From: Bacteroides sp.
GTDB taxonomy: Bacteria > Bacteroidota > Bacteroidia > Bacteroidales > Muribaculaceae
Direction: 5' to 3'
DNA: 64,000 bases
Assembly (NCBI GenBank): GCA_014802325.1
Contig: JAAVCK010000008.1
Span: 1 to 64,000, forward strand
In this document: positions 33,311-42,907 of the stretch, in pieces
Layout of the letters: each line of letters opens with the position of its first letter
How positions within the stretch are numbered: position 1 is the stretch's first letter
Notes under the pieces: model-generated
Seen by the model: the letters and a program-made list of their open reading frames with translations, nothing else
Told to the model about the DNA's origin: nothing
Database searches by the model: none
Translations under genes and position numbers: made by a program

Positions 33311-34012
33311 TTATATGTTGCTCTCTATTTCTTCCACAGTCGGCAGAGTCCCTTTAAAATCCGCAGGAAAGAGTTTCGCCAATTCATATTCAGATATGCC
33401 GATAGGTTCGTTGATAGCTTCTAAAGCGTATTTTGCTAACACATTATCTTTGGTTTTGCATATCAGCAAGCCTATAGTGGGATTATCCGTTTCCTCTCGC
33501 AACTCATGATTGACAGCTGCAACGTATGTGCCAAGTTGCCCCAGGCTACTGGCCTCAAATTTCCTCGTTTTAATTTCAACTACAACATAACAATGAAGTT
33601 TGGTATTATAGAACAACATGTCGATAAATTGCTCAGTACTTCCAATCTTTATCCTATATTCTCGCCCCATGTAAGCAAAGCCGCTACCTAATTCAAGCAA
33701 AAATTTTGCGATATTTTTCTCCAAAGCATCCTTCAGCTCTTTCTCTCTATAATTCTCCGCAATGCTTACAAAGTCAAACGTATAAGGGTCTTTTGATAAT
33801 TCCTGGGCCAAGTCACCGTGAGGTTGAGGTAATGTGTTTTGAAAATTCGTGATCGCACGTCCCTGTCGTTCATAGAGGTCAGTATCTACAAAGTTCTCAA
33901 GCATTCCGCGAGACCAGTTATTTACTATAGTTTTGCGGACAAAGAAAATAGCCTTCTTTATATTATTTTGATATTTATCCATAATGACTTTATGATGTCC
34001 CCAAGGTATCAT
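33311..34012 (-). pseudogene. YhcG-type PDDEXK nuclease, C-terminal piece of a frameshifted gene
   Basis: 233 codons encode the C-terminal nuclease domain of the YhcG/DUF1016 family: IPWGHHKVIMDKY, VNNWSRGMLENFVDTDLYERQG, then the PD-(D/E)XK core FIDMLFYNTKLHCYVVVEIKTRKF (Asp, and the ExK in VEIKT), ending DNPTIGLLICKTKDN. The N-terminal part lies upstream in another frame. Removing one base from the G5 run at 34033-34037 (C5 on the coding strand) joins the two as ...LPQVGEEIFMIPWGHH. Family members are linked to defence or mobile elements. The locus is AT-rich compared with its neighbours, suggesting acquisition. Confidence 0.8.
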
Positions 34013-34385
34013 AAAGATTTCCTCCCCGACTTGGGGGAAGTATATTGGATTCTTGTTCTACAATTTCTTCCTCAGCTTGGGGAAGAATTATATCAGCCTC
34101 TGGATAAAGTAGATAGAAGCGCTGCATATATCGCAGATTTGTAGGAGAAAAACTCTTTACTCCGGGTAGTAAGGTCTTTAAATCTTGACTGAGATTCTCA
34201 AAGAATTTATCACCCCACTGATACTGTGATTTTTTCTCTGTTATTTCTCGTCCTAAATTCCAATAAAATTTTAGCATTTCAGAATTAACAGATGTAGCGG
34301 CTTTTAATTGGCTCCGACGGAAATCCTCACTGATTCCAGTGATCCATTCGTTATATTTCTTGTCTGTGTTGAGAAGTGTGCTCAT
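33990..34385 (-). pseudogene. YhcG-type protein, N-terminal DUF1016 piece of the same gene
   Basis: 131 codons from ATG 34385 encode the DUF1016 N-terminal helical domain: YNEWITGISEDFRRSQLKAA, MLKFYWNLGREI, FFENLSQDLKTLLPGVKSFS, and NLRYMQRFYLLYPE. After the acidic LPQAEEEIVEQESNIL the frame passes the C5 run and reads out of register (PPSRGGNLYDTLGTS, then stop). In the alternative frame the sequence continues directly into the conserved IPWGHH of the nuclease domain. The gene could be inactive, length-variable at this tract, or affected by a sequencing error. Confidence 0.8.
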
Positions 34386-34501
34386 ATAAATACTTTTTAC
34401 TGAGTAAAGGTAAGAAAAAAAATCTGATATGTCATATCTTTTAATCATAAGGTATTAACCTACGCGTCTAACTTTCTACAAATGTTAAATTCATGAAAAG
34501 A

Positions 34502-34533
34502 TTTGGTGGGGTAGATAATTGGTTGTAATTTTG
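34502..34533 (+). promoter_or_regulatory. Promoter of the metK leader
   Basis: TTTG (34502-34505) and TAATTTTG (34526-34533) are 20 bp apart, the classic Bacteroidota -33/-7 arrangement. Transcription would begin near 34538-34541, just before the riboswitch. Confidence 0.75.
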
Positions 34534-34547
34534 CAGTCCATAAAAAC

Positions 34548-34603
34548 ATAGTGGACAAATTTGGCTGCTTGCAACCACTTCAAAAAAATGCTAAACCGCA
34601 ACC
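34548..34603 (+). promoter_or_regulatory. SAM-II riboswitch upstream of metK
   Basis: The leader matches the SAM-II (metA-type) aptamer order: P1 strand AGTGG (34550-34554), the loop motif AATTTGG (34558-34564), CTTGCAACCACT (34568-34578) where CCACT closes P1, an A-rich linker, and GCTAAACC (34590-34597). In this pseudoknot the 3' GCUAAA strand returns to the loop, and the CC can pair with the GG of the loop. The element starts just after a strong promoter and lies ahead of the SAM synthetase gene, which is biologically coherent. A covariance model search would settle it. Confidence 0.82.
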
Positions 34604-34683
34604 TCATCGACCCGCCCGGGTCAGCCGCGCCACCGCCGACTGCGGTGAGCACGAACGATAAAAGGTTTTTTGAAGTTACATAA
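34588..34683 (+). CDS. 31-residue leader ORF starting inside the riboswitch
   Basis: ATG at 34588-34590 is preceded by CAAAAAAA, the A-rich context favoured for Bacteroidota starts, and runs 31 codons to TAA at 34681. The start codon overlaps the GCTAAACC pseudoknot strand of the SAM-II aptamer, so ligand binding would bury it. The peptide contains proline clusters ([15 protein letters not shown]) that can stall ribosomes. It ends 97 bp before metK. It may be a regulatory leader rather than a functional protein. Translation is unproven, and the GC-rich hairpins GACCC/GGGTC and CACCGC/GCGGTG lie within it. Confidence 0.4.
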
Positions 34684-34780
34684 GGGTCAGTGCCGAGAGC
34701 ACTGCCGCGAAAATGTTGAAAAACAGGCACCGAATTTTCCATGGCCTATTTTTCGACATTTTAATTTTATATATACATAT

Positions 34781-36106
34781 ATGAAGACTTATCTTTTTAC
34801 ATCGGAAAGTGTATCGGAAGGACATCCCGACAAGGTGGCCGACCAGATATCCGACGCCATACTCGACGAATTTCTCGCCCATGACCCCGAATCGAAGGTG
34901 GCATGTGAGACCCTCGTCACCACCGGCCAGGTGGTGATAGCCGGTGAGGTGCGCTCGGAGGCATATATCGACCTCCAGGACGTGACCCGCCGCGTGATAA
35001 AGCAGATAGGATATGACCGCTCCGAGCTTAAGTTTGACGGTGAGGCCTGCGGCATACTCTCGGCACTCCACGAGCAGAGCGCCGACATCAACCGCGGCGT
35101 CGACCGCGAAAGCAAAGAAAAACAGGGTGCCGGCGACCAGGGCATGATGTTTGGCTACGCTTGCAATGAGACCCCTGACTATATGCCTCTCACTCTTGAC
35201 CTCTCTCACCGACTGCTCCGCGAGCTCGCCGACATACGCCGCGAAGCCAAGGAGATGACATGGGAGAAGCGCGGCCGCGTGTTCACCTATCTCCGCCCCG
35301 ACTCAAAGAGCCAGGTTACTGTGGAATATGACGAGAATAACCGACCGCTACGTGTGGACACCATCGTGATCTCTACGCAGCACGACGAGTTTATCAAGCC
35401 GACAGATGATACCCCCGAGGCTCAGGCCGAGGCTGACCGCGCCATGCAGCAGCGCATTACCGACGACATGCGCAACATACTGCTGCCGCGTGTGAAGGCT
35501 CAGCTCCCTGCTGATGTGGCAGCTCTCATAGGCGACGACGTGAAGCTGCTCGTCAATCCTACCGGAAAATTCGTGATAGGCGGCCCTCACGGCGACACCG
35601 GACTTACCGGACGCAAGATAATAGTGGATACCTACGGCGGACACGGCGCTCACGGCGGAGGTGCATTCTCGGGCAAAGATCCCTCTAAGGTCGACCGTTC
35701 GGCAGCTTATGCCGCCCGGCACATAGCCAAAAACCTCGTGGCTGCAGGCGTGGCCGACCGCGCGCTCGTGCAGGTGGCCTACGCTATTGGCTGCGCCGAA
35801 CCCGTCAGCCTGTGCATCGACACCGCCGGCACGTCGCATGTGGATCTCTCCGACGGCGAAATCGCCGAAATAGTTAAGAAGATGGAATGTTTCGACATGC
35901 GCCCTTACGCCATAGAAAAGCGCTTCGACCTCCGCAAGCCCATCTACGCCGAGACCGCATCCTACGGCCACGTAGGCCGTCAGCCCCGCCGCGTGGTCAA
36001 GCACTTCGAGTCGAAATACGAAGCTCCCAAGGACATCGAGGTAGAACTCTTCGGCTGGGAACGCCTTGACGCCGTCGACGAGGTGAAGAAAGCATTCGAC
36101 ATCTAA
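34781..36106 (+). CDS. metK: S-adenosylmethionine synthetase
   Basis: A 441-residue enzyme making SAM from methionine and ATP. It starts [22 protein letters not shown] with the conserved His and Asp. Other motifs are [20 protein letters not shown] (about residues 118-137), [23 protein letters not shown] (about 262-284), and the P-loop-like [19 protein letters not shown] (about 290-308). I chose ATG 34781 rather than an in-frame TTG at 34670, which would precede conserved sequence by 37 codons in the leader. Feedback by SAM is implied by the SAM-II riboswitch in the roughly 240-nt leader. Confidence 0.96.
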
Positions 36107-42720: not shown

Positions 42721-42725
42721 CTTTG

Positions 42726-42799
42726 CGCTTCAGGATGGGCTTGAACCAACGACCCCCTGATTAACAGTCAGGTGCTCTAACCAACTGAGCTACTGAAGC
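42726..42799 (-). tRNA. tRNA-Asn (anticodon GTT)
   Basis: A 74-nt cloverleaf on the minus strand. The acceptor stem is GCTTCAG/CTGAAGC, the D arm GCTCAGTTGGTTAGAGC, and the anticodon stem CCTGA/TCAGG with loop CTGTTAA giving anticodon GTT. The T arm is around GTTCAAGCC. The 3' CCA is not encoded. It is identical to the copy at 42834-42907. Confidence 0.95.
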
Positions 42800-42833
42800 A
42801 AGAACAAAAATGAAAACAAACAAATTATTAACG

Positions 42834-42907
42834 CGCTTCAGGATGGGCTTGAACCAACGACCCCCTGATTAACAGTCAGGTGCTCTAACCAACTGAGCTA
42901 CTGAAGC
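42834..42907 (-). tRNA. tRNA-Asn (anticodon GTT), second identical copy
   Basis: Same 74-nt sequence as 42726-42799, separated by 34 bp of AT-rich spacer. This is the promoter-proximal copy. The pair is probably one transcript ending at the hairpin 42689-42720. Confidence 0.95.

Follow-up and report, generated by a model that had tools for sequence, protein, structure and literature searches.

The metK gene of this Bacteroidales genome is preceded by a SAM-II riboswitch (RF01726) that probably turns the gene off at high SAM, most likely by bringing transcription to an early end. In the window, by which we mean the whole 64,000-nucleotide stretch analysed, cmscan matched RF01726, the long-loop form of SAM-II, at 34545-34604 on the plus strand, with 61.4 bits against a cut-off of 44, an E-value of 2.2e-9 for the 64-kb window and coverage of model positions 1-60 of 60. 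Over the whole 64 kb three matches rose above cut-off, namely this one and two tRNAs, and the source genome holds one SAM-II copy. The sequence-only reading had called the element SAM-II and named RF00521 as its model; the class was borne out, by way of RF01726, but not the model, since RF00521 (SAM_alpha), aligned with permissive thresholds over 34450-34830, gave 17.1 bits, below its cut-off of 36, and was ruled out as the matching family. On the strength of the RF01726 match over the full model, and of the P1 covariation reported below, the aptamer is a real member of an already catalogued SAM-II family, with SAM sensing predicted. The motif order described from the letters was present as given, all on the plus strand: AGTGG (34550-34554), AATTTGGC (ending at 34565), CTTGCAACCACT (ending at 34579), an A-rich linker (34580-34589) and GCTAAACC (34590-34597). 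The P1 helix is formed by 34550-34554 and 34575-34579, and the pseudoknot by 34560-34565 with 34590-34595, the partners of the latter being assigned by eye.

On the 5' side of the aptamer, TTTG (34502-34505) is followed after a gap of 20 nt by TAATTTTG (34526-34533); these promoter-like boxes (34502-34533, plus strand) agree with the -33/-7 promoter proposed before, and we take them to be of the Bacteroidota type. TANNTTTG occurs within the 54-base stretch 5' of P1 at 151 of 184 distinct loci; a sigma-70 scan found no promoter on this strand. Downstream, metK (34781-36106, plus strand) encodes an S-adenosylmethionine synthetase with all three S-AdoMet synthetase Pfam domains (PF00438, PF02772 and PF02773), which confirms that the SAM-II aptamer stands ahead of this gene, and the GCTAAA strand lies 185 nt from the metK ATG, close to the distance of about 180 nt first estimated. 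Upstream of metK, a YhcG/DUF1016 PDDEXK-nuclease gene (33311-34448, minus strand) is split over two overlapping reading frames, with DUF1016_N positions 2-86 in 33990-34448 and positions 92-137 together with YhcG_C in 33311-34012, and looks frameshifted.

A SAM-II aptamer before metK is ordinary in Bacteroidales and routine in the family. At E<=0.001, 24 of the 27 genus genomes had an RF01726 match, as did, in searches that covered samples of the higher groups rather than the whole groups, 144 of 149 family genomes (142 above cut-off), 98 of 149 order genomes (97 above cut-off) and 38 of 247 phylum genomes (35 above cut-off). The 192 loci fetched hold six repeats (L032-L037, equal to L063, L062, L066, L064, L071 and L060), and at all 186 distinct ones metK has the aptamer before it. 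At the order level 30 loci were fetched from the 98 genomes with a match, and the family matches of G067 and G124, at contig ends, fall outside the fetched loci. All 29 new phylum loci gave a metK match, and the right orientation, with the aptamer before metK, was read in 11. Among 20 named metK loci, chosen by hand from 80, 16 matched RF01726, including records of Porphyromonas, Tannerella, Parabacteroides, Prevotella, Rikenella and Flavobacterium, and the four with no match belong to Roseivirga, Pedobacter, Prevotella ruminicola and a 'Verrucomicrobia' bin. The setting had been presented as unusual; this view finds no support in the family and locus counts or in the named loci, and Bacteroides thetaiotaomicron already appears among the SAM-II species in the available part of PMC1273637.

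Eight genomes of the family and genus gave no RF01726 match, and six of these gave no metK match either. In G099, also without RF01726, metK is represented by residues 271-440 only. In G026 (locus L222) metK is present with no SAM-II match and, by eye, follows immediately on another open frame; the switch appears to have been lost there. Two genomes of the order sample, G247 and G167, carry two SAM-II matches each (the second in G167 below cut-off, at 32.7 bits), so a second gene may be under SAM-II control there. L191 and L192 (in G016 and G039) hold a variant SAM-II, with a loop 1 enlarged by eye, which scores 40.5 and 38.8 bits against the cut-off of 44.

Conservation was counted over 184 of the 186 distinct loci, leaving out L191 and L192. 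At pairs 1-4 of P1 none of the 184 loci lacks pairing: pair 3 is T-A in 176 and A-T in 8, and pair 4 is G-C in 182 and A-T in 2. Treating the columns as independent would predict pairing at pair 5 in 88 loci, and 151 have it; pair 6 showed no excess of pairing (49, against 65 expected). The pseudoknot strand reads GCTAA in 184 of 184 loci, and GCTAAA is near-invariant. Covariation of P1 and conservation of GCTAAA, both suggested as checks, were therefore found; for the pseudoknot conservation is what can be shown, because a strand that hardly varies cannot display covariation.

Between the aptamer and metK the window contains a terminator-like hairpin (34710-34768, plus strand; predicted fold -16.0 kcal/mol), with arms at 34710-34728 and 34744-34762 and an interrupted U-tract, TTTTAATTTT, at 34759-34768; a simple pattern scan of the window found no terminator at this hairpin with its interrupted tract. 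Long leaders make up 22 of the 24 in the genus, and in all 22 a T-rich tract follows a hairpin with some variant of GTTGAAGC as its 5' arm; hand-entered motifs served to locate the arms. The start codon lies 23-48 nt from the first base of the 3' arm in 20 of the 22, 75 nt from it in L055 and 419 nt in L054, where a repeat-like sequence stands between metK and an intact hairpin. The repeat-like sequence in L054 (genome G158) measures about 300 bp; parts of the stretch match 88 places in G158, counting the stretch itself, and the window's genome has no match. More widely, a T-tract preceded by a hairpin of -12 kcal/mol or better was found in 71 of 166 leaders (five repeats included), against 9.8 in shuffles. 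The strongest hairpin of the window scan was a different one, AACC..GGTTTTTT (34600-34671, -24.4 kcal/mol), which the scan also flagged in L001, L058 and L060 and which was seen by eye in L054; we did not retain it as a second terminator, since it is a multibranched domain closed by just four pairs.

The 5' arm and loop of the 34710-34768 hairpin (34715-34743, plus strand) are complementary to the 5' half and core of the aptamer (34551-34575, plus strand, GTGGACAAATTTGGCTGCTTGCAAC), and we propose these two stretches as the 3' and 5' strands of an antiterminator. The duplex is computed at -22.1 kcal/mol, against -11.4 +/- 2.7 kcal/mol in 1000 dinucleotide shuffles (p=0.001), and the loop part of the hairpin alone against the aptamer gave p=0.003. 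The corresponding duplex, compared in every one of the 22 long genus leaders with 1000 dinucleotide shuffles, reached p<=0.05 in 19 and p<=0.01 in 9, p-values that are not independent because the leaders are related; L020, L063 and L067 failed the test. An alternative pairing that would exclude both aptamer and terminator was thus found as complementarity only. The loop alone reached p<=0.05 in 4 of 22 leaders, three of which form the window's close group; with the core alone, tested against the spacer as a whole, 5 of the 22 reached it, the window not among them.

Two details of the genus leaders are consistent with this pairing. In five of them P1 reads GAGG/CCTC in place of GTGG/CCAC, and each of these five has the aptamer A paired to a T of the terminator loop; in the 17 GTGG leaders the aptamer T pairs with a loop A in 10 and with G in one, and is unpaired in six. 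The change thus appears to be shared by three places, the two strands of P1 and the loop, although the co-change may amount to few events because the GAGG leaders may be one lineage. When that P1 base was exchanged in silico, the duplex became weaker in 15 of 22 leaders and stronger in 7. Furthermore, a U.G wobble of the terminator stem is kept in 17 of the 22 leaders, and in the best duplex its U also pairs with CAAC of the aptamer core in 11 of these 17; such pairing would explain why the base is U rather than C.

The same complementarity recurs outside the genus. The 166 long leaders include five repeats, and the 161 distinct ones (30 from the order, 22 from the genus and 109 others from the family, added up without repeats) have a downstream partner for the aptamer 5' half at p<=0.05 in 69 cases and at p<=0.01 in 20, against 13 and 5 for a reversed aptamer of the same composition. 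After thinning to 94 loci with less than 80% metK identity, the figures at p<=0.05 were 40 against 9 for the reversed control. The 3' half of the aptamer was weaker as a general partner, with 47 of 166 leaders against 73 of 166 for the 5' half at p<=0.05, tallies that include the repeats, and was dropped in this role.

A second element of the window lies closer to the aptamer. The P1 3' strand and linker (34577-34587, plus strand, ACTTCAAAAAA) can pair with 34666-34676, within an anti-linker element, GGTTTTTTGAAGT, at 34664-34676 on the same strand (p=0.017, 300 shuffles); in the predicted free fold of the window this duplex has a pairing probability of 0.999 and replaces P1, whose own probability falls to 0.01 in the unliganded fold. 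GGTTTTTTGAAGT is identical in L058 and L060, the spacers of which are 73-76% identical to that of the window, and the linker test reached p<=0.05 in 4 of the 22 leaders, that is, the window, L058, L060 and L070, the best partner of the linker in L070 being the terminator arm. As the sole antiterminator the anti-linker was set aside because, when free, it could pair with the terminator 5' arm, which would give a switch of the wrong sign; by eye, this pairing with the 5' arm is not kept in relatives.

The fold figures, which are predictions from energy parameters only, bear on how such a switch could operate. When the window transcript is cut at 34745, with the 3' arm incomplete, 34551-34575 is predicted to pair with 34715-34743, the antiterminator fold. 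Blocking the aptamer to mimic the bound state gives the terminator a probability of 1.00 in the window and of 0.50-1.00 across the 22 genus leaders; at full length with the aptamer free, the window value is still 1.00, and 7 of the 22 leaders drop below 0.5. The switch would thus have to be kinetic, because the equilibrium fold of the window keeps the terminator even without SAM. In the nascent fold the mean pairing probability between 5' arm and aptamer exceeds 0.5 in 11 of the 22 leaders and is 0.27 in the window.

From these elements we infer the following order of folding, SAM binding and termination. Without SAM, the linker and the P1 3' strand would pair with the anti-linker at 34666-34676 and P1 would open; 34551-34575 would then be captured by the terminator 5' arm and loop at 34715-34743, a pairing that would need kinetic trapping during transcription, and the polymerase would read into metK. 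With SAM, P1 and the pseudoknot would hold 34551-34575, the anti-aptamer strand, no longer captured, would fold into the terminator hairpin, and the transcript would end at about 34768. A platform other than direct masking, which the first reading had anticipated, is in keeping with the 185-nt spacer and with this candidate attenuator; its form is predicted from complementarity and folds.

The main competitor is a translational output, in which the freed downstream strand would pair near the metK start and keep ribosomes off. The hairpin of the window ends 18 nt before the start codon, and 23 relatives from outside the genus have TTTTCCAC and, after it, TGGAAA..ATG; for their leaders the folds predict an ATG that is unpaired with a mean probability of 0.16 when the strand is free, compared with 0.39 when it is held, with a drop of more than 0.3 in 12 of 23, and the order sample behaves alike (0.23 against 0.44, with such a drop in 11 of 30). 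Some relatives therefore seem, from these predicted folds, to mask the start codon instead. In the window's own genus, however, the predicted start accessibility is 0.35 when the strand is free, compared with 0.31 when it is held, and a drop of more than 0.3 is seen in 0 of 22; moreover, L054, with an intact hairpin whose 3' arm is 419 nt away from the start, fits termination and not start masking. For the window we consider this reading unlikely.

Transcription could also be ended by Rho, with the freed pyrimidine-rich strand as its loading site and the hairpin incidental. The anti-aptamer strand at the order level is pyrimidine-rich by eye, and a hairpin of -8 kcal/mol or better was found in just 3 of 30 leaders of the order sample; against this, hairpin and T-rich tract occur together in 22 of 22 long genus leaders, and we give the Rho reading little credit.

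Slighter still is the case for direct masking of the start by the pseudoknot, the textbook SAM-II mode. The distance from GCTAAA to the ATG ranges from overlap up to 530 nt, and it is 17 nt or less at 25 of the 186 distinct loci, among them L066 and L068 of the genus itself, in which the start codon lies directly behind the pseudoknot strand (GCTAAAAATG); for the window, though, the mode was rejected on its spacer of 185 nt. The extreme of overlap is seen in L185, L187 and L192, in which the start codon abuts the pseudoknot strand's end or shares bases with it (GCTAAAATG, GCTAATG). That the aptamer is decayed or non-functional, with chance complementarity downstream, is scarcely credible given its retention in 144 of 149 sampled family genomes, the covariation of P1 and the 69 of 161 leaders with an anti-aptamer duplex against 13 of 161 for the reversed control.

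The termination switch that we favour can be compared with known systems through the available portions of the papers cited here. SAM-II in Bacteroidetes has been in print since 2005/2010 (PMC1273637, PMC2864571), so that a SAM-II riboswitch on metK in this order is ordinary as a find, aptamer and place both being known. RF01726 was described for SAM-II with long loops from Bacteroidetes and marine sequences (PMC2864571); the window resembles it in the full-length model match, the taxon and the downstream gene of SAM metabolism, whereas that description, in the portion available, gives no expression platform and an attenuator is proposed here. With the alpha-proteobacterial SAM-II of RF00521 (PMC1273637), for which putative terminators were noted for many RNAs and an OFF switch was expected, the window shares P1, pseudoknot, expected sign and a putative terminator, and differs in its score of 17.1 bits, below the 36-bit cut-off. 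In Sinorhizobium meliloti, SAM binding to the metZ SAM-II is predicted to lead to a Rho-independent terminator (PMC9373788), as proposed here, albeit before another gene and in another phylum; for metA of the same species its authors could not predict a SAM-II-driven antiterminator, and an antiterminator built from the aptamer 5' half was not found in the available text of that paper. The metX SAM-II (PMC10907184) has an aptamer of the same class and works by direct occlusion, with the ribosome site in the pseudoknot, whereas the window start is 185 nt away. The accessible portions of PMC12121620, PMC13273304 and PMC11701678 hold nothing on a Bacteroidales metK SAM-II switch, and among the matches listed no title or abstract opening, a scope outside which subscription journals and supplements fall, mentions a metK expression platform in Bacteroidales. 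The new part would be the predicted off-switch itself, a leader modelled to fold either as the sensor or as a strand that blocks an early transcription stop.

If true, this platform would account for the long spacer and would be of modest importance, as a testable mechanism of SAM control in a large group of gut bacteria. A wider proposal, on which we are evenly divided, is that the Bacteroidales SAM-II metK switches share an anti-aptamer strand that captures the whole aptamer 5' half, pseudoknot strand included, and that the output (a terminator, a start-codon mask, or no spacer with the start at the pseudoknot) has been exchanged quickly between close relatives. The leaders would then form a series offered by nature: in closely related bacteria a single aptamer seems to act through terminators, start masks or direct overlap. 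Elsewhere in the window, 42725-42907 on the minus strand holds two tandem tRNA-Asn (GTT) genes of equal score and the same printed sequence.
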